A program made the translations under genes and the position numbers. DNA of 28,320 nt from a virus, in the IMG/VR virus record IMGVR_UViG_3300031673_000367, positions 1-28,320 of that record; one strand, 5' to 3'. The notes below the pieces were generated by a model. That model had not been told where the DNA came from, did not search any database, and saw only the letters and a program-made list of their open reading frames with translations. The stretch's first letter is position 1. Each line of letters starts with the position of its first letter. Below are positions 13,425-23,146 of the stretch, piece after piece.

Positions 13425-14633
13425 CTAGCTCAGAGCCGTCCCGACGTTGTAGCCATCGACCAGCGCGGTGTCCTCTTCCACGGCCACAGCCACCTTGGCG
13501 GTGATCGCGTACTGGTTGACGCGCTTGAAGATGTCACGAGCTTTCTCGATGCGGATGTCGCGACCCACGCCCACGATGAAATTCTGCCAGTGGGTGAGGA
13601 TGATGCGAGCCTTGCTCTGGTACGTGACCTTGACGGTCGCACCGGAACCGATGGCGCCACCGATACGGGTGACGGTGCCGTTGGCCTCATCCACCGAGTA
13701 ATCGGTGTTGAGGACGTATGGCGTGGTCGGAGTCTTGCCAAGCGCTGTCGGCAGGACCACGACATTGGTCACGGGCTTGTACAGCAACGCGCTGGGCGTG
13801 GTGCCGTCCGTGTTCATGACCACGTGCTGGACCACGGTGGGCTCCAAGGACAGGAGCGGAACCGGGATCAGGGGCACGCCATAGGGGCTGAGGGGCTGAG
13901 AGCTGCTGATGGCGCTGTCGCCCTTGGCAGTCGCTCTGCTCGCAACCTTCTCACGGTAGTTCTGCTCCAGCTCGGGAGCACAGAAGAAACGCAGACGGCC
14001 ACGATCACGCTTGAACTTGTTCGGCATCGCGTTCAGCATACGGCTGAAGATGGTGCTGTTCACGTTCTCATTGGCGATGTTCACCCGGTTGCCGGACTCG
14101 CCCTTGCGCAACCAACCATCGCCCAGGCCCATGAAGGCATCCTTGACATACTGGCTGTCGCTTCCGCCGTCCTTGTAGATGGACTCCAAGATGGCCGGTC
14201 CCAGGACGTTGCCGTTGATGTAGTATTCCTCCAGGTCGTTGGCGAAGACAGTGGCCATCATCTTCACGATGTGGTCTTCCACGCTCATCCCCTCAACGTT
14301 GATCTCGCTGAAGGTGTCGCTGATCTCGAACGGAACCATGACCTCAGCCGGCTGGAGGCTGACTTTGGACGTGGTCACGCCACGGCGCAGACCTGGATCA
14401 GCAGCTTCCGTCGCCGCAACGGCAACGCGCCCGCCAACACCGATTTTGTCGATGTTCAGCTGTTCGGGCTTGAACTTGATGGTGCGAGCGTTGTTGCGCA
14501 TCATTGTCTCGTCAAAGACGTAGTCAATGAACTTGTCAGCCTGCTCGGGATTCATTTTGCCTTGGGCAGCGATGGCGTCAGCGGTGATGACCGCCTTCTC
14601 TACCAGCTGTGCGTTCGACACTTGAGGTGCCAT
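13425..14633 (-). CDS. Major capsid protein, HK97-fold, with probable inserted beta-domain
   Basis: This 402-residue protein builds the head shell. The start has GGAGG seven bases upstream. The sequence order matches the PBSX XkdG-like/HK97-fold group: an N-terminal helical arm, then GGRVAVAATEAADPG (68-81), the E-loop-like strand segment SKVSLQPAEVMVPFEISDTF (89-108), the spine helix EDHIVKMMATVFANDLEEYYINGN (119-142), and a C-terminal P-domain/A-domain ending in HWQNFIVGVGRDIRIEKARD and TAKVAVAVEEDTALVDG. Between about residues 263 and 340 lies an extra strand-rich segment (LYKPVTNVVVLP, YVLNTDYSVDEANGTVTRI, ATVKVTYQS) that reads like a small Ig-like domain inserted in the core fold and probably exposed on the surface. 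It follows the protease and scaffold genes, the usual capsid order. Confidence 0.88.
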   Translation of the reverse strand: MAPQVSNAQLVEKAVITADAIAAQGKMNPEQADKFIDYVFDETMMRNNARTIKFKPEQLNIDKIGVGGRVAVAATEAADPGLRRGVTTSKVSLQPAEVMVPFEISDTFSEINVEGMSVEDHIVKMMATVFANDLEEYYINGNVLGPAILESIYKDGGSDSQYVKDAFMGLGDGWLRKGESGNRVNIANENVNSTIFSRMLNAMPNKFKRDRGRLRFFCAPELEQNYREKVASRATAKGDSAISSSQPLSPYGVPLIPVPLLSLEPTVVQHVVMNTDGTTPSALLYKPVTNVVVLPTALGKTPTTPYVLNTDYSVDEANGTVTRIGGAIGSGATVKVTYQSKARIILTHWQNFIVGVGRDIRIEKARDIFKRVNQYAITAKVAVAVEEDTALVDGYNVGTALS

Positions 14634-14714: not shown

Positions 14715-15860
14715 TTACACCACGCCAGACCAGAAAGAACCCTTGGTGCCGCCGCTCGCGTCGCCCTCGCCCGAGCCGTCACCGGCAGACTTGGAAACTT
14801 GAACGGTGCCCTCCACCTTTGCCACTCGCTCGCCGATGGCCTTCAGACCAGCGGTGATCTCGCCGACAGCCTTGGTCACCTCTTTGATGGCGTTGATCTC
14901 GTCATCGGTGGCGTCAGGCTCGGTGGTCGTGGCAGTTGCGATCACGGACTCCACAGCAGCCGCCGCGTCAACGACAGGCGCCACAGGGTCAGTGGTGGGG
15001 GTGACGGTGCCTTCGCCGCCCTCATCCTTTTCGGACTTCATCCAGGGCATCTTCTTGTCGCCCATGGCTTCCTTCAGCACCTTCATCGCCGAACTGAGGC
15101 TGGCGATGGCCGAAGTGAGTTGGCTCTTGCGCTTCGCGCTGAGAGCCGCGCCCGCTTTCTCCACCTCCACCGGGTTGGTGGTCGTGGCAGCTGCCGGAGC
15201 AGCCTTTTCAACCGGCTGGCCCTGGGCGGTGGCGAGCAGGTTGGTGATCGTGGTGACCGCATCCTTCAGGCCATCGGGCAGTCCCTCAGCGCCTTGAAGT
15301 GCCTTCGTGATCTCGGTGGCCCGCGCCAGGGCATCGTCACCCTTGGGCTGCGGAAGTGCCTTGGAGACTGCCTCCAACACCGCCTTGTTGACCACTTCCA
15401 TGAGCGCATCTCGGTCACCGAACAGCGCTTTGGCGTTTTCCAAAGCCTTGGTGACTTCCTGAGGCAGCTCGGGAGTGGTTGGCGTCTTGACTTCGGTTGC
15501 GGCCGCTTCGGTCGGCTTGGCGCCGCCCGTTGCTTTCTCAACCTGGGTCGTGACTGCCGTTGTTTCGGTGGTGGCTGCTGCGTTCACTTCGGGCTTGCCG
15601 CCACCGAGCTGTGCGTTGACCGCCGCTTCTGCGGCTTGGTCTTTGCCGATGCTCAGAGTATCCATTTTTACAACCTCCTGTTGCTTGGTGACCGGTGTGG
15701 TCAACTTGATGTCCGGTGACAGCAACTTGGCCGCCGGCTCATCTGGTTTGCTCGGCTTGGCGCCAAGTTTATCTTTCACGACCAAAAACGGTCGCTGGTT
15801 CGCTGGGGAATCAACCAGGTCAACTGATCTCACGAGCAGGTCTACAAGTCGCTTTATCAT
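14715..15860 (-). CDS. Capsid scaffold protein (long form)
   Basis: The 381-residue product starts at the ATG at 15860, which overlaps the stop of the protease gene (ATGA) and has GAGG eight bases upstream. The N-terminal segment RSVDLVDSPANQRPFLVVKD resembles the 'dlv..PAN...FlvvK' phrase found directly after XkdF-type proteases. From about residue 100 the protein is Ala/Thr/Val/Glu-rich and helical or disordered. The segment VEKAGAALSAKRKSQLTSAI followed by SLSSAMKVLKEAMGD is a typical scaffold phrase in this gene order, and a Gly/Ser-rich C-terminus follows. Scaffolds guide capsid assembly and are removed by the prohead protease. A second strong in-frame start inside the gene (ATG at 15665) would yield a 316-residue form lacking the first 65 residues. 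Confidence 0.7.
   Translation of the reverse strand: MIKRLVDLLVRSVDLVDSPANQRPFLVVKDKLGAKPSKPDEPAAKLLSPDIKLTTPVTKQQEVVKMDTLSIGKDQAAEAAVNAQLGGGKPEVNAAATTETTAVTTQVEKATGGAKPTEAAATEVKTPTTPELPQEVTKALENAKALFGDRDALMEVVNKAVLEAVSKALPQPKGDDALARATEITKALQGAEGLPDGLKDAVTTITNLLATAQGQPVEKAAPAAATTTNPVEVEKAGAALSAKRKSQLTSAIASLSSAMKVLKEAMGDKKMPWMKSEKDEGGEGTVTPTTDPVAPVVDAAAAVESVIATATTTEPDATDDEINAIKEVTKAVGEITAGLKAIGERVAKVEGTVQVSKSAGDGSGEGDASGGTKGSFWSGVV
15665..15679 (-). promoter_or_regulatory. Strong internal ribosome binding site and ATG within the scaffold gene
   Basis: AGGAGG (15674-15679) is placed eight bases before an in-frame ATG (complement of 15663-15665) inside the scaffold gene. This is a better site than the one at the gene's own start. 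Initiation here gives a 316-residue C-terminal form, like nested scaffold genes in other phages. Confidence 0.6.
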
Positions 15861-18613
15861 GCTGCTATCCTCGTTTCTTGGATCACCCTGGCGATGCCGC
15901 CGATGGAGAATCCGGTTACACGGCCAGTCTTGATGTCTTCCCACAGACCGTCGTGATCAACCCTCATCGCCATGACCCATGAACCAGCCCGCACACGCTT
16001 TCCGTTGACGGTCATATTCACAGGTGCGATGTAGCTTTCCATTATCCTCAGACCTTTTGGGAACTGTGGATAACGTCCTGATTTGCCGTGTTGAAAACCC
16101 TTCTGCTGGTAAAATTCCATGTACAGGTGGGCGGCACGCTTGATCGTGGCCTTGTCGATCACCTCTCCATGTGCATCTACTGCCTCTGGTTCCAACACAA
16201 CCCCATACACCATCCGCTCTTCAACGGCTGCCGCCTTCTCAACGATGATGGGCACGACCGTCTCATCATCATCAACAATTTGCGCCGCCTTGGCGACCTT
16301 TCCTTGGTCGTCATCTTCGTACTTGAAACCGATAGCGTCCAGAGCATCGAGTGTGTCGATGTTCCAGACCAACTGAGTGCCTTCAGCGTTCGCCAACTCA
16401 GTTTCGTATTGTTCTGAACTGCTCATGATATATGGACGCTGGTTGTATGTCGGCTTCCACATCCGCCAGAACTGCTGATCAGCCGGTGAATCGGCAGAAT
16501 CATAACGCAGCCTGGACACCCAACGTCCACTCATGTCCTTGTTCTTTTTGAAAAACAGGAAGTATTCATGAAACTCGGTTTTCTGACAACCGTAGATCAC
16601 GACACCTTCATCCACCAGCCTGAACTCAGACGCCTCGCCGGTGTGTGTCTCCGGATAAAACACTGGGCTGTCTGAGGTCGCCACATCCAACCAAGCGATG
16701 TTGTGCTTGGTTTTCTTCAGCGCGGTGATTGAATCGCCTTCCTCATATTGATTGAACTGGTCCCGCCGGATGGGCAGCAACTTCCCGTTCAAGGTTTGTA
16801 CCACCAACCCTGGCGTGTCCAGAGACCATCCCACGAGGTCGCCGGCCGGTGTCTCCATCCTCAGGTCCACGTGTACGGAACCGATGTTCACGATATTGGG
16901 CATAGCATCGCCCAACTCGGACAGGTCCGGCACAGAGGTGTCCATGAACTTGGCCACGGCTTCCAGAATCTTGTTTGGCTCGCAACCAGCCAACCGAACT
17001 TCCCTCTGGATGCTCTTCAGTGAGGCGGTGAGCCTGTGTAGTTTGTACTGGGACCATACAGCGTCCAACGTTACCTGGCCAGCAGGGCTGGTCTTATCGA
17101 CAGCGGCAAGCGCCGCTTTGATCTCGGCTTGCTCGGCCGGTGACCAAACGTCCTGGAAGTGGCGTTGAACCACAAACCGCCGTGTGATGGTCCCGGTCTG
17201 CTCGACCATGTATGGGTCCATGCTACAGTCCTTGGCGATGTGCGTTGGCGCCGTCTTGGGGATGCCGTCCATGAATGACTCTCCTGAAGTCGCTGGGTTG
17301 GCCTTCCCGCCGGCCGCCGTCGTGATTGACTTCGTGGTCTTCATCACGCCGATCACAGCCTTGACTCCGTCAGTCAATGAGATGGTACGGAATGAACCTG
17401 TCTTGAACAGGCCTGGCTCCTTCTGTCTGAGTCTGAATGAAGAGCCCGTCTCATCAACCTTGTTGTCCTTGAAGTTGTGCTCGACGGCCCACTTGGTCGC
17501 TTCGCCCTTCTTGAACTTGGACTTGTCGAAGATGATCGTTTGAATCGTTGTGGTCGCCTTGACAATACTCTCAAGATGTTTGGCCTCAACGGCCCGTTTG
17601 GACAGATCAGCAGGGATTTGATCGCCAAACGTCTTCAGAGTACTGCCTATCATTCCAGACAACGCAATACGCTCCTTGCGCGTCAGAACTCCCCACGTCA
17701 GAAGCCTGTCGGCTGTCCTTGTGAAGCTCTCGTGGATGCGTGACTCCAAAACGTCCCTGACGTTTGGAGCTTGCTTGAGCACATCTTCAACTGAGCTGGC
17801 CATGGCCATCAAAAGACTGTCTGGCAACTCCAACTCGATGTCGCGCTCAGATGACTTGGTCACCATGTAAGTAGCCGCGTTGAGAAACTCCTCATCGCGC
17901 TCCTCAGGATCAGATTGATCCCATTCAGTCGCCATGGCTTTGGTCAGGGCTTGCATCTCCTCATCGGCCAGCCCTTCCAGAACCTCGTCAACGCCCGCCG
18001 CCTCCAGCATCTTGTTCTTCTTGGCCCACTCGGGTGGCCACTCCTTGAATCCTACCACTTCGGCCAGCTGCCCATTCTTGGCAACTGCTTCCTGCGCCCA
18101 GCTCTTGTGTGACTCGCAAACCGGAACAACCGCCCGGCCGCCGGCCCAAACGAGTCCTGTGGTGGCCTTTTCCTTGCAACCTGATGCCATGCAAGTCTTT
18201 TTCCATGACGGCTTCCGATTCGCATCTTCAACCGTGGACAGGTCCGTCACATCCACAGTCCCGTCCGCCAATGAAGCTGGAATTGGCGGTGCCACCGTCC
18301 CGAGGTCTTTCATGAACGAAACTGCTTCCATGTGGTTGTTGCTCTTGAACCACTCAGCAGCATCTGCCACCCAATTCGGGTCCGGCATCACTTGATTGGC
18401 AAACATCGCCAGGTGTTCTTGGACAGCATCACTTCTCTGTGTGGCGCTCTTCTCATCCCAGTTGGCGTAGATGCCGGCCGCCTGGAGGTGTTGGAATGCC
18501 GCGTTGGCCCAATCCTTCCCGTCATTGAGAATGGGCGTGTTGATAGCTGCCTTCTCCACAGTTGTCTTCTGTGCTTCCATCATTGCCTTCACTTCGCTGC
18601 GTAGTCTTCGCAT
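15857..18613 (-). CDS. Multidomain prohead protease: XkdF-like C-terminus with central LigD phosphoesterase-like region
   Basis: The product is 918 residues from the ATG at 18613 (AAGGGG eight bases upstream; an in-frame GTG at 18622 touches that site and was not used). Residues 141-169 hold a possible zinc site, C-x4-C ... C-x2-H (CMASGC, then VPVCESH). Around 365-397 comes a small alpha/beta phrase, KSKFKKGEATKWAVEHNF then VDETGSSFRLRQ, common beside phage proteases. Residues about 457-725 resemble the LigD N-terminal 3'-phosphoesterase layout: VVQRHF, then HVDLRMET..G.L.GWSLDTPG, then TGEASEFRLVDEGVVIYG, FHEYFLFF and SGRWVSRL. Residues about 800-912 match XkdF/peptidase S78_2-like proteases (YGVVLEPEAVDAHGE, RIMESYIAPVN, GSWVMAMRVD, TGFSIGG). 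It probably matures the prohead. The role of the phosphoesterase-like part is unknown. Confidence 0.75.
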   Translation of the reverse strand: MRRLRSEVKAMMEAQKTTVEKAAINTPILNDGKDWANAAFQHLQAAGIYANWDEKSATQRSDAVQEHLAMFANQVMPDPNWVADAAEWFKSNNHMEAVSFMKDLGTVAPPIPASLADGTVDVTDLSTVEDANRKPSWKKTCMASGCKEKATTGLVWAGGRAVVPVCESHKSWAQEAVAKNGQLAEVVGFKEWPPEWAKKNKMLEAAGVDEVLEGLADEEMQALTKAMATEWDQSDPEERDEEFLNAATYMVTKSSERDIELELPDSLLMAMASSVEDVLKQAPNVRDVLESRIHESFTRTADRLLTWGVLTRKERIALSGMIGSTLKTFGDQIPADLSKRAVEAKHLESIVKATTTIQTIIFDKSKFKKGEATKWAVEHNFKDNKVDETGSSFRLRQKEPGLFKTGSFRTISLTDGVKAVIGVMKTTKSITTAAGGKANPATSGESFMDGIPKTAPTHIAKDCSMDPYMVEQTGTITRRFVVQRHFQDVWSPAEQAEIKAALAAVDKTSPAGQVTLDAVWSQYKLHRLTASLKSIQREVRLAGCEPNKILEAVAKFMDTSVPDLSELGDAMPNIVNIGSVHVDLRMETPAGDLVGWSLDTPGLVVQTLNGKLLPIRRDQFNQYEEGDSITALKKTKHNIAWLDVATSDSPVFYPETHTGEASEFRLVDEGVVIYGCQKTEFHEYFLFFKKNKDMSGRWVSRLRYDSADSPADQQFWRMWKPTYNQRPYIMSSSEQYETELANAEGTQLVWNIDTLDALDAIGFKYEDDDQGKVAKAAQIVDDDETVVPIIVEKAAAVEERMVYGVVLEPEAVDAHGEVIDKATIKRAAHLYMEFYQQKGFQHGKSGRYPQFPKGLRIMESYIAPVNMTVNGKRVRAGSWVMAMRVDHDGLWEDIKTGRVTGFSIGGIARVIQETRIAA

Positions 18614-18625
18614 CGTTTTCACCCC

Positions 18626-19597
18626 TTACACGGCATCAATCGTGCACCGGCATAAGTAATGATATGTGGGCAGGGCCATCCCGGCTTCTGCCATTGCTCC
18701 ACGTCCACGGCCGATCACGCTCAACGCTCCCTTGACGCCTTGCCATCCCGCAACAGACTTGTACTGTTCAGGCGATTTTGCCGACAGCACTCTGTCACGT
18801 TGGGCCGCGCCTTGTTCCACGGTGAACTCTTTACCGTCCATGGACTTACATATGGCACAGGTGCGCCTATCCATCACAGCGCTGATCCTGTACCTTTGGA
18901 TGTCCGCTTCTTGCATGCTTTCCAGATCAGCGAACACACGCGCCGTTGTTGCGGCGTGATTGGAGAGTCCGCCCCAGTACTGTTCCGGCCGGTGTGTGAA
19001 AATGCCCGGCACCTTGACTGGCGCTTTGGAACCTGTGCCCAAGCCATAGACTCGGTTGAGGTGTCCTTCAATCTCCTTGGCTGCTGCCCGTCTTGGCAAT
19101 CCCTGTTCGATCACCGTCTTGCGGACAGCTTCCGTGATTTGGCTGGACAGATGCTTCTGGTGGAAGTCCTTGATGTACCACTGATAGCTCTTGCCCAACC
19201 ACTTCTGCGTGCGCTTGTCAACCAGATTGAGGCTTGTCTTCAGGCCCAACGTCTTTGCTGCTCCGGATTTGGCAGCTGCGTACATTGCCGCTACTGCTGT
19301 CTCAATTTCCGGTGCCATAGCTGCGGCCATCGGTGCGCCCAACTCTTTTTCCAGACCGGCCATGAGTCGCGTCAGATCAGCTTCAGTGAATTTGGTCGTG
19401 CCACTGATGCCTTTCAACGCTTTTCTCACCGCCGCGCCCGCCCGGCCGTTGAACCGGGTGGTCAACACGCGCTGAAGGTCCACCACGTATGCTTCCATGG
19501 CAGACTTCGGACCAACCTTCAGAACTTGGACCAGCATGTGGTCGGCCATAGTGGCACAACCGCAGGCGTGATCACATATTTGAAGGTCGTGATTCAT
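18626..19597 (-). CDS. Minor head protein, SPP1 gp7 / Mu gpF-like
   Basis: This 323-residue protein is a head morphogenesis protein of the Mu F/SPP1 gp7 group, which associates with the portal and is ejected or kept in the head. The signature C-terminal module is clear: YRISAVMDRRTCAICKSMDG (236-255) with Cys247 and Cys250, and PTYHYLCRCTID (310-321) with His313, Cys316 and Cys318, the usual metal-binding-like set. The N-terminal region is a long Ala-rich helical segment (AMAPEIETAVAAMYAAAKSGA). The start overlaps the portal stop by four bases (ATGA). Two further Met codons (residues 17 and 21) could be used instead. It follows the portal gene, which is the normal order in this family. Confidence 0.85.
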   Translation of the reverse strand: MNHDLQICDHACGCATMADHMLVQVLKVGPKSAMEAYVVDLQRVLTTRFNGRAGAAVRKALKGISGTTKFTEADLTRLMAGLEKELGAPMAAAMAPEIETAVAAMYAAAKSGAAKTLGLKTSLNLVDKRTQKWLGKSYQWYIKDFHQKHLSSQITEAVRKTVIEQGLPRRAAAKEIEGHLNRVYGLGTGSKAPVKVPGIFTHRPEQYWGGLSNHAATTARVFADLESMQEADIQRYRISAVMDRRTCAICKSMDGKEFTVEQGAAQRDRVLSAKSPEQYKSVAGWQGVKGALSVIGRGRGAMAEAGMALPTYHYLCRCTIDAV

Positions 19598-21363
19598 TCT
19601 GCTATTGCCTCGCCTGATCCGCCCTCGCCATCAGAGCTGTCCTCATCCTCATCAGGCCAAGCTTCGTGGAGCCCGTCCCACATCTTGTCATATGCAGACT
19701 TGTACACCGCTTCCAGCGATGTGCGCATCTCCACGAGCTTCTCAACCTTCTCAACAGGGCTGAGATCAGCTTTGGTAACACCCTCTCCTGGCGTTGAGCT
19801 CAGAGCCGCCGCCGGATTGCCGGCATTCTTCATGGCTGTGGCAAGCTGGACGCTGAATGGGATGTTCGGGTCCAAACCAGTAACCTCGCCCAGATCACGA
19901 CTGAACACGTCAGACATTACCTCACGTGCGATTGCTGGCGTCATTCCGCCTGCTTTCTCAGCAGCTGCCATAAGCTTGACCAGCGTTTCATTATCAGTCG
20001 TGTCAGGTGTATTGGACTTGAATTGCCAATAGACCACACCGAGGTCGGGCAAGATCACCCTGTTCATGAAATTGTCGAACGTTGAACGCTCAGGATTGAA
20101 CACCTGTTCGTCTGTCAACACTTTTGCTACTTGTGCCGTTGCCCGATTGTAATCCTCGGTGGAGCCAGTAAAAATTGGGGGCAGTCTGAACGCCCCTTTG
20201 ATTTTCTTCCGGTTGTTGAGATCATACTGCTGGAACAATTCATCCTTATGCTGGACGTCAGTCAGCGGCTTGATCTCAAGCTTCATTGTGCCGGGATTCG
20301 CCACACCCTCGCCCACAGGCTCGGATTCCAGAATCAGGAATTGGCTGTAATTTTTCTTCCCAGCGATATGTGATTCAACGAACTCCTTGACGCGCCCGAT
20401 GGAGCCGTCAGTGAGCATCCCGTTGCTGACCAAGATGGCCATGCTCGGGATGTTGTTGTTTTCAAAAGTGAAATAGTTGATTTCTTCAGATGAGCGTGAT
20501 CCATACACCGAAAACAAGTTGCCGATGTAGCGTGGAAGCGCATATGGTGATCGTGGAGCCCAGACGCAAGGGAAGTAGATGCACTCATTGGCGCGGTGCC
20601 CCTTTTCCAAGGACTCATCTTTGACTTCGCCATCCCTGCTGTCGATGATCCTGGGGTCGCCGAAGTATTTGAACCACACGACTTTGTGGGCTCTGATCTG
20701 CGCCATCTTCCTGAACCGCTTGTACACGGTCCTGGTCTTCCACTTGAGTCCGCCACCTGCAACCTTGAAGAGCAGGTTTTGCTGCGTCTCAATCGGATCA
20801 GAATACTTGGACCAGCGGCATGTGTGTGAAGGGATCACATTGAAGCCCATCAACTCGCCGGCCGGATTCCTCAGAACCTCCCACCAAGCGCCGCCAGTTG
20901 CTTCCTGATCACGCCGCTTGCGCATGCGCAAATCGGTGAAGGCCAACTCTGGGTCTTCCACCGAGGCATAGTTGAAGAAGTTGTCAAGGATGATCTCCTC
21001 AACTTCCATCTGAGCCTTGGCCTTGGCATCCAGCTTTTCAACCTTGATGCGCGGAACAAACCTGTGGCCAAGGCCATCACAGTTCACTTCCATCGCAGCG
21101 ATGCATTGTCCCAACACCGTGTTGTTCTCCCAGAGCGTGGATAGCTCCAGAAGGTTGACGGGTGGCCTCACGATTCCGGCAGCAGCGCCCTCGCCATACA
21201 TGTCCTCAAACGGGTCCTCAACTTGCTTGGACTCGCCGGGTCGATCAATGGCATCCTTGTCGGCCTTGATGATTTGGACTCGCCCCACCATTCGGCCTGC
21301 ATCGGCCGCCGTGGCTGGACCAGCTTCAACCACCCTTATTTCAGGGCTGCCTTCGGTGGACAT
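19594..21363 (-). CDS. Portal protein (PBSX/SPP1-like)
   Basis: The 589-residue protein forms the ring through which DNA enters and leaves the head and on which terminase docks. Recognisable portal features are the helical LSTLWENNTVLGQCIAAMEVNCDGLG region (73-98), the YIGNLFSVYGSRSSEEINYFTFENNNIPSMAILVSNG segment (around 280-318), and the GAFRLPPIFTGSTEDYNRATAQVAK stem-helix motif (around 396-420), followed by an FDNFMNRVILPDLG helix. A long helical C-terminus ends in an acidic tail (DEDEDSSDGEGGSGEAIAE). Length is near the usual 450-600. It starts two bases after a small upstream gene and overlaps the Mu F-like gene. Placement between terminase and the minor head protein confirms the identity. 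Confidence 0.9.
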   Translation of the reverse strand: MSTEGSPEIRVVEAGPATAADAGRMVGRVQIIKADKDAIDRPGESKQVEDPFEDMYGEGAAAGIVRPPVNLLELSTLWENNTVLGQCIAAMEVNCDGLGHRFVPRIKVEKLDAKAKAQMEVEEIILDNFFNYASVEDPELAFTDLRMRKRRDQEATGGAWWEVLRNPAGELMGFNVIPSHTCRWSKYSDPIETQQNLLFKVAGGGLKWKTRTVYKRFRKMAQIRAHKVVWFKYFGDPRIIDSRDGEVKDESLEKGHRANECIYFPCVWAPRSPYALPRYIGNLFSVYGSRSSEEINYFTFENNNIPSMAILVSNGMLTDGSIGRVKEFVESHIAGKKNYSQFLILESEPVGEGVANPGTMKLEIKPLTDVQHKDELFQQYDLNNRKKIKGAFRLPPIFTGSTEDYNRATAQVAKVLTDEQVFNPERSTFDNFMNRVILPDLGVVYWQFKSNTPDTTDNETLVKLMAAAEKAGGMTPAIAREVMSDVFSRDLGEVTGLDPNIPFSVQLATAMKNAGNPAAALSSTPGEGVTKADLSPVEKVEKLVEMRTSLEAVYKSAYDKMWDGLHEAWPDEDEDSSDGEGGSGEAIAE

Positions 21364-21365
21364 GG

Positions 21366-21575
21366 TTAAATGCCCTCTGCGGACTCGACAGCCGCCTTGA
21401 CGGCTGCGTGAATGCCGGCCTCAGTTCTGGCCGGGTCCAACTCCACGGCCACTTCGCCGTTTTTTCTCATGGCGGTATCATCGCTGTCGTTGACCGTGTA
21501 GACGCACTTCATGGTGAGCCACTCGGTTGAATTGCCTTCGATGTACGCCGTCATTCTCTCGATTTGCTTTGCCAT
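21366..21575 (-). CDS. Small protein between terminase and portal
   Basis: This 69-residue protein overlaps the terminase stop by one base (TGATG), and the portal gene begins two bases after its own stop. It is acidic, with a strand-like first half (MTAYIEGNSTEWLTMKCVYTVND) and a short C-terminal Ala/Glu-rich helix (GIHAAVKAAVESAEG). Such a small coupled gene between terminase and portal is likely an assembly or packaging accessory. No family is recognised. Coding status is supported by tight coupling on both sides. Confidence 0.6.
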   Translation of the reverse strand: MAKQIERMTAYIEGNSTEWLTMKCVYTVNDSDDTAMRKNGEVAVELDPARTEAGIHAAVKAAVESAEGI

Positions 21576-23146
21576 CAGAATAACCCTGGTTCCTTTTCGC
21601 GCCGTTTCTTGACGCCACGTGTTGAAAGCGTTACCGCCATTTCAAACGCATCGAACAGATCATCCTCGCTGCCTTCCCTGAAGGCCACCATGTGATCGAT
21701 GAACTGCTTATGTGAGCGACTGATGCGCACCAACTTGGATTCAAAAATGGACGTGAGCTTCCAAGCTCTGGTGAGCTTGTCCAGCTTCGTGTATATGGGA
21801 ACAACCCTGCCATTGATGACAGGATACTTGTCCTTGAGATTCTGGAGCTGGGCCGCCTGATATGCTACTGCTTCAACGCCGGTCCTGATCGGGTCCTGCT
21901 CCAAGAACCGCTCGCCAATGATGACGGCCTGCTCATTGAAGCCAAATCGGCCCCAAACGAAGTCAACCAGGTACACGAGGTCTTTGTGCCTCGCTATGGT
22001 CACACTTGCGAATTTGTCAGCTGTTTTCTTGGTGCTGATCGCAAGGTCATTGGCCGTCCAGATATGGGCGTCAGCCGGGATGGTGTCATAGAAGATGTCT
22101 TCATGATCGAACCACTCAGGCTTGAACACCTCGCCGCGCATCGTTTCGATGTCACATTGGTACTGTGAATCAAAGATGGCCGGCCCTTGGTCCTTGCGCT
22201 TCTTCAAAAAGAACTCGATGCTGAACTTCTCAGACCATGGAGTGACGTACACCGGATGGCCATCTTCAGTCTCATCGATTTGAGTCAGCGCCGGAATGAC
22301 CTGGGTGTGGTCTTTCAGCTCCTTGTCCTTGAGGTGCCCATACAGGTCCTCAGGATGATACCGCGTACCGATGATGTGTCGCTCACCTCTGTGCTCCACG
22401 TCATCTGGCGGCTCAAGACAAGGGTCCAGAGTCTTGTAGTAGAACTTGTTGATGCGATCACGAAGCATCGCTGTGCGGCTGTTTTCCTCGTCCACCAAGT
22501 CATCGACCAGCTCTACATCATAGTGCTTGCCGACCACCGCGCCCTCGGAACCGAGTGCCGTGAAGTTGGATTCCTTCGTGTGGTGCTTCCGTTGGAGCAC
22601 GTTGATTTCGCGCTCATTCCAGACAACGGATGGATCATTCATGTTCGTTGGGGCAAACTCACCGAACAAAGTGATGAGCTGCTCATTGAACATGAGGTGG
22701 TGCTTGATTTCTTTCAGAATGGACTTGGCCTGATCATACGTTCTGGATGTGATCAGGATTCGCAGGTCAGGATTCTTGCAAATGTACCAGATGCCCTTGG
22801 CGACAGACAGAATCGTGGTCTTGCCCGCGCCTCGAAATACCAGCTGAAGGCTTTGCGGGTGGTGCTGCTGGTAGGCCAACAGTTGACGGTGGAGGTCTGT
22901 ACACTCCAACCCCAACACGTGCGTAGCCAGGATGTCAATTCGCCCGGCCAGGATAGCTTGCTTCAGCATACCATTGTATGCGTCATCAGCTTCCAGTATG
23001 TTGCCGGCCAGTTGCTCCTTGGTGAATGATCCGATCACCTTCCTGATTTTGGATACGTCAGGAGGCTTGGCCACGCGCTTCTTGCGCTTGAACCGGTCGC
23101 GCACCTCTTTGAGCGAGGTGGTGGTGGTGTCTTCAGTCAGGCTCAT
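21575..23146 (-). CDS. terL: Terminase large subunit (packaging ATPase-nuclease)
   Basis: The 523-residue motor protein drives DNA into the prohead and cuts concatemers. The ATPase part has a Walker A, FRGAGKTT (104-111, Lys109), preceded by the LQLVF strand; a Walker B, VELVDD (211-216); and the coupling-type phrase IIGTRYHPEDLYG (258-270). The nuclease part carries the three acidic residues expected of the RNase H-like fold: Asp367 in WTANDLAIST, Glu425 in TGVEAVAY, and Asp499 in DDLFDAFEMA. Length is close to the usual 450-600. The start overlaps the preceding stop by four bases (ATGA), and no independent ribosome binding site is seen. No clear small terminase is recognised in the window; one of the small genes upstream may hold that role. 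Confidence 0.93.
   Translation of the reverse strand: MSLTEDTTTTSLKEVRDRFKRKKRVAKPPDVSKIRKVIGSFTKEQLAGNILEADDAYNGMLKQAILAGRIDILATHVLGLECTDLHRQLLAYQQHHPQSLQLVFRGAGKTTILSVAKGIWYICKNPDLRILITSRTYDQAKSILKEIKHHLMFNEQLITLFGEFAPTNMNDPSVVWNEREINVLQRKHHTKESNFTALGSEGAVVGKHYDVELVDDLVDEENSRTAMLRDRINKFYYKTLDPCLEPPDDVEHRGERHIIGTRYHPEDLYGHLKDKELKDHTQVIPALTQIDETEDGHPVYVTPWSEKFSIEFFLKKRKDQGPAIFDSQYQCDIETMRGEVFKPEWFDHEDIFYDTIPADAHIWTANDLAISTKKTADKFASVTIARHKDLVYLVDFVWGRFGFNEQAVIIGERFLEQDPIRTGVEAVAYQAAQLQNLKDKYPVINGRVVPIYTKLDKLTRAWKLTSIFESKLVRISRSHKQFIDHMVAFREGSEDDLFDAFEMAVTLSTRGVKKRREKEPGLF

Follow-up and report, generated by a model that had tools for sequence, protein, structure and literature searches.

Why should a viral prohead protease carry, in the same chain, a domain that resembles a DNA-end-repair enzyme? 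The question is raised by one gene in the IMG/VR virus record IMGVR_UViG_3300031673_000367, of which positions 1 to 28,320 were analysed; this whole stretch of 28,320 nucleotides is called the window. On the minus strand, the open frame of the gene runs from an ATG at 18613 to a stop at 15857-15859, giving a product of 918 amino acids, and a GTG upstream at 18622 is a possible alternative start. An earlier reading of the letters (the original prediction) had proposed a LigD 3'-phosphoesterase-like region fused to an XkdF-type prohead protease. The argument turns on the following features.

15857..18613, minus strand: the whole gene, an N-terminal extension followed by the LigD-type phosphoesterase-fold domain and the XkdF prohead protease (open frame, Pfam, AlphaFold2, Foldseek)
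16424..17218, minus strand: LigD 3'-phosphoesterase-fold domain with insertion, residues about 466-730 (AlphaFold2, Foldseek, family alignment, hhalign)
15881..16237, minus strand: XkdF-type prohead protease domain (PF14550), residues 793-911 (Pfam)

We first consider the fold of the middle domain. An AlphaFold2 model of residues 456-790, built from a 12-sequence alignment, has a predicted local distance difference test score (pLDDT) of 85.6 and a predicted template modelling score of 0.83. When the model was compared with the PDB by Foldseek, only two matches were significant, and both are archaeal LigD 3'-phosphoesterases found with probability 1.00: 3p4h (E=1.7e-5, TM-score on target 0.76) and 3p43 (E=2.3e-5, TM-score on target 0.68). 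The hit after these two has a probability of 0.01. The outcomes that would speak against the original prediction, namely a structure unrelated to LigD_N or matches to portal and protease families alone, were checked, and LigD phosphoesterases were found instead. The motif order read from the letters also holds: HVDLRMET starts at residue 581, GEASEFRLVDEGVVIYG occupies 659-675 and GRWVSRL starts at 696, and they lie on model strands at 574-587, 663-678 and 696-703 (119-132, 208-223 and 241-248 of the modelled segment). A structure search of predicted viral models (BFVD) gave one significant match, A0A516LT18 of 827 amino acids, with probability 1.00 and poor overall superposition. The model supports residues about 466-730 being a divergent homologue with the LigD 3'-phosphoesterase fold.

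By sequence, the window protein has no match in the PDB, and neither has a 9-sequence profile; the best entry for the latter was cGAS at an E of about 0.5, which was judged to be chance. Since the window sequence alone fails to reach LigD_N, relatives were needed. An initial viral scan with a single stretch gave none; the first relative, locus L002 from viral contigs, shows 38% identity over 463 aligned positions. The two-sequence alignment then led to nine loci and larger alignments to further ones, while a search of named phage proteins added ANMV-1 (AJP62006.1), a virus of uncultured archaea. Bacterial and archaeal genomes scanned with the family profile yielded no relatives. The residue census and profile comparisons below cover 19 aligned members, and the following feature divides them.

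16895..17152, minus strand: helical insertion, about residues 488-573, between two metal-binding strands (AlphaFold2 helices)

Fourteen members carry this insertion, which is about 85 residues long and mainly helical in the model. The five members without it (L024, L055, L058, L059 and ANMV-1) are more LigD-like; examples of the compact form are L024 RYVAQHHIRGNSIHTDLRME and L058 RFVAQHHWRGKSVHLDLRFEANDHLVGW. Among the relatives, L058 has the best PF13298 score, aligning to positions 2-105 of 107 (E=1.4e-5) with 25.6 bits, below the curated Pfam cut-off of 31.1. Profile-profile comparison by hhalign was made against ten viral LigD_N sequences, with chance gauged by column-shuffled LigD alignments. 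The insertion-free members reach P=1.6e-11 with a score of 77.4, the maximum among 80 shuffles being 20.1, and the insertion-bearing and insertion-free members match each other at P=2.6e-40. All 19 members together reach P=1.9e-8, far above the shuffles. The LigD_N profile match that the original prediction looked for is obtained from the family; Pfam is silent on the window sequence itself. In a maximum-likelihood tree, the split between the family and LigD is fully supported; with LigD taken as the root side, all members that carry the insertion group in a single clade (100/99) within an insertion-free grade, which is consistent with a single gain of the insertion. In most of this clade the chain also includes XkdF, which it does in no insertion-free member.

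Does the domain keep an active site? In LigD, the metal ligands are His42, His48 and Asp50, the phosphate contacts are Arg52, His84 and Tyr88, and Gln40 supports the site (PMC8656161). The sites aligned with these residues, together with a motif specific to the family, are located as follows.

17159..17176, minus strand: FVVQRH, residues 480-485, a strand with Q483 (Gln40) and H485 (His42), from the alignment
16859..16873, minus strand: HVDLR core, residues 581-585, with H581, D583 and R585 (His48, Asp50 and Arg52)
16691..16705, minus strand: HNIAW, residues 637-641, with H637 and W641 at the positions of His84 and Tyr88 (hhalign register)
16565..16585, minus strand: QKTEFHE, residues 677-683, the family-specific QK-x3-HE motif

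The alignment agrees with the proposal that His581, Asp583 and Arg585 sit like the H-x-D-x-R core of the enzyme. It had also been stated that the His six residues before this core is missing. No His stands at that spacing, but its equivalent exists as His485 in FVVQRH, and it lies 96 residues before H581 because the insertion parts the two strands. Across the 19 members, the metal triad is nearly invariant (H485 in 18, H581 and D583 in all), and R585 is kept in 17. The added motif is conserved to a similar extent, with Q in 18/19, K in 19/19, H in 17/19 and E in 19/19. This residue pattern is more in keeping with an enzyme retained in altered form than with one in decay, the activity being a prediction from conservation.

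The C-terminal domain is identified directly. PF14550 is the sole Pfam match in the protein, at 5.4e-26 with 91.5 bits (cut-off 24), which confirms that the C-terminal 120 or so residues are XkdF-like protease. H842 and S903 are invariant in the sequences of 11 relatives, and we infer a catalytic role for them. The model of this domain is of modest confidence, with a pLDDT of 69, and its top PDB fold match, T4 gp21, is weak (probability 0.96, E=0.023), so the structure serves only to back the Pfam call. Separately, phrog_1530, phrog_14859 and some phage records contain XkdF-bearing proteins labelled 'DNA methyltransferase' or 'RNA ligase'; the labels may stem from fusions of the kind described here, or may be misannotations.

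The relatives show what else is joined to the phosphoesterase domain. In at least nine of them, the open reading frame also encodes an ATP-dependent DNA ligase: it was found by Pfam, upstream of the phosphoesterase domain, in L004, L006, L007, L014, L023, L049, L056, L058 and ANMV-1, and was recognised by motif in L050. The ligase is a separate reading frame of the same cluster in L009, L024 and L055. Other upstream partners in the same frame are D12 adenine methylases (L006, L009, L014, L056 and L059), an InPase domain (L005) and, by motif, nucleotidyltransferase. For example, L004:1-7365 is a single frame of 2455 amino acids in which five matched C5 cytosine methylase stretches are followed by nucleotidyltransferase-like, DNA ligase, phosphoesterase-like and XkdF domains. 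In L002:3915-7127, a ferritin-like domain (PF00210, 1.4e-12) lies just upstream of the phosphoesterase-like domain and XkdF in one chain. Just before the phosphoesterase domain of L008 and its near-copy L011, a short stretch (L052:8854-9033) matches the C-terminal ligase region weakly (E=8e-4) and may be what is left of a ligase domain. For ANMV-1 (L035:1913-5800, KP703175), the gene annotated as 'MutT-like phage hydrolase' matches portal protein (PF06381, 3.2e-22); the product labelled 'ATP-dependent DNA ligase' includes the phosphoesterase-like domain as well. As a side observation, L003:4462-7365 and L007:3145-7362 have an N-terminal DSGGF motif resembling a tRNA-guanine-transglycosylase or DpdA-type enzyme, noticed by eye and with no Pfam match.

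The setting of the gene is that of a standard head cluster. Read from right to left, it consists of the terminase, portal, MuF-like protein, the gene itself, and the scaffold and capsid candidates. These neighbours, and one further site within the gene, are listed here.

21575..23146, minus strand: terminase large subunit (PHROGs, 2.3e-70)
19594..21363, minus strand: portal protein (PHROGs, 4.7e-22)
18626..19597, minus strand: MuF-like minor head protein (PHROGs)
14715..15860, minus strand: probable scaffold protein, judged from position and composition
13425..14633, minus strand: virion structural protein (phrog_1623, 2.3e-71), from its position probably the major capsid protein
18107..18193, minus strand: zinc-like C-x4-C-x19-C-x2-H site, residues 141-169 of the gene product (sequence)

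Head-assembly genes (portal, MuF or capsid) also adjoin the gene in all relatives examined, namely L014, L023, L011, L058 and ANMV-1. The zinc-like site near residues 141-169 is present in the sequence as predicted. A segment of the portal proteins of Gordonia phages is similar to it (E=5e-6), which suggests a small domain common to head proteins.

Phages inject some enzymes along with their DNA. With the protease fusion and the head-gene cluster as its basis, delivery or release of the enzyme during head assembly is plausible. We give roughly even chances to the reading that the prohead protease of a tailed virus has been extended N-terminally into a polyvalent, polyprotein-like chain, whose phosphoesterase is carried into the head and cleans 3' ends for ligation. 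The protease part would draw the chain into the procapsid and, during maturation, would cleave itself and its cargo, freeing the N-terminal parts. The phosphoesterase part would remain in the head alongside the DNA and, either at that site or once ejection has taken place, could remove 3'-phosphate or 3'-ribonucleotide blocks so that a ligase seals nicks or joins ends. The ligase would come from the same chain in many relatives and, for the window virus, from elsewhere in the genome or from the host. Since the domain is joined to a capsid protease, and ligase and methylases are joined to it in relatives, the particles of such viruses may be loaded with a kit for DNA repair and protection. A fuller version is held more tentatively, and we consider it somewhat doubtful: a Ku-independent kit of LigD-like end repair and modification (ligase, 3'-phosphoesterase and methylases) would be the N-terminal cargo of the prohead protease, freed in the procapsid and delivered with the genome to mend and protect the incoming DNA, with the phosphoesterase active site rearranged.

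Several observations weigh against these proposals. The Pfam and LigD_N search of the window record gave no LigD_N (PF13298) match for the window protein. The insertion-bearing group alone reaches P=2.9e-5 against LigD_N, and its score of 41.0 is modestly above the shuffle maximum of 36.4; the case for those members therefore rests on the bridge through the insertion-free members and on the fold. The equivalent of Arg52 is missing in L002 and in ANMV-1, where it is Met. At the His84 site, His is found only in the window protein and L008, with mostly Gln elsewhere, and the Tyr88 site is Trp in most members, including the window protein; both exchanged residues are required for LigD activity. 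No ligase was found within the 28 kb of the window, and the window chain itself has no ligase domain. Ku, the partner of LigD in nonhomologous end joining (NHEJ), turned up in none of 14 viral records, a set that includes many fragments, and Ku from the host is possible.

The same exchanges at His84 and Tyr88 suit the idea of a repurposed, non-catalytic fold, which the original prediction named beside end-repair activity; here the prohead protease would use the LigD fold as a module to bind DNA or scaffold, and no ends would be repaired. The phosphoesterase domain stays beside the protease even though the records of L003, L008 and L011, like the window, show no ligase, and the possible relic before the L008 domain points in the same direction. 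On the other hand, the triad and Arg are nearly invariant over 19 divergent members, and the new motif has an invariant K and E and a near-invariant Q and H, which is typical of a kept active site. The domain is also found without any XkdF, beside a ligase. We regard a non-catalytic role as rather unlikely.

Alternatively, the domain may be catalytic but work on a different substrate or by a different reaction: QK-x3-HE would replace the phosphate-binding pair of LigD, and the target would be a modified base, an RNA end, a nucleotide or a protein-linked end instead of a simple DNA 3' end. The invariant family-specific motif, the systematic exchanges (Gln for His84, Trp for Tyr88), and the DNA-modifying enzymes in the same chain of relatives would agree with this. 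It is nevertheless improbable in our judgement, as the domain so often goes together with an ATP-dependent DNA ligase, which suggests DNA ends. Finally, a chance origin of the HxDxR and GRW motifs, with no kinship between the domain and LigD, is hardly credible: the window protein has no direct Pfam match and the 9-sequence profile no PDB sequence match, but the fold search is significant for LigD phosphoesterases only, L058 does match in Pfam, the insertion-free and whole-family profiles score well above shuffles, and a ligase is the partner.

If the end-repair reading is true, a LigD-type end-healing domain on a maturation protease, accompanied by a ligase in many relatives, would add DNA-end repair to the possible contents of virions. 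It would also be a natural example of cargo loading through fusion to a prohead protease, and one that is directly testable. The family further shows a compact active site tolerating an insertion of about 85 residues between metal ligands together with the exchange of phosphate-contact residues, and this helps to understand the LigD phosphoesterase superfamily.

When compared with the LigD 3'-phosphoesterase superfamily (PF13298; PDB 3n9b, 3p43 and 3p4h), the viral family has the same fold, metal triad, and Arg52 and Gln40 positions, and the association with an ATP-dependent ligase is seen in relatives of the window protein. It differs by the helical insertion, Trp in place of Tyr88, Gln in place of His84 in most members, and the added QK-x3-HE. 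It also differs in being fused to a prohead protease and in scoring under the Pfam cut-off, and no POL domain or Ku was found. The middle domain is a LigD-fold homologue that, by the cut-off and by the lack of Tyr88, lies outside PF13298, and it is not an NHEJ LigD. Among the XkdF prohead proteases (PF14550, Peptidase_S78_2), the C-terminal domain of the window protein is a clear member, set apart by a long N-terminal extension with an enzyme-type domain.

A further comparison is with the polyvalent proteins of phages and conjugative elements. The passages of PMC5512222 considered here describe such proteins whose C-termini hold assemblin-like peptidases, with a presumed part in virion assembly, and propose that the proteins are packaged and then delivered with the DNA. 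The likenesses to these passages are unrelated activities in one chain, a head-gene context and a C-terminal assemblin-like peptidase, as well as the methylase and InPase-type domains present in relatives of the window protein. In the window protein, two disparate domains (the phosphoesterase fold and XkdF) share a chain, and the peptidase is C-terminal (793-911 of 918); by these features it counts as a polyvalent-type protein. However, 'DNA ligase' occurs nowhere in the main text of PMC5512222, and its passages on phosphoesterases treat 2H and InPase domains, not LigD. The open-access literature searched gave nothing relevant on a prohead protease fused with either a ligase or a LigD phosphoesterase. 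The polyvalent class is thus known, whereas the LigD-like end-repair module, the active-site insertion and the exchanged residues appear undescribed in that literature. Another close system is ANMV-1 AJP62006.1; unlike the window protein, it is without XkdF and the insertion and has Met at the Arg52 position. What it shares with the family is a nucleotidyltransferase-like region, an ATP-dependent ligase and a phosphoesterase-like domain beside a portal gene.

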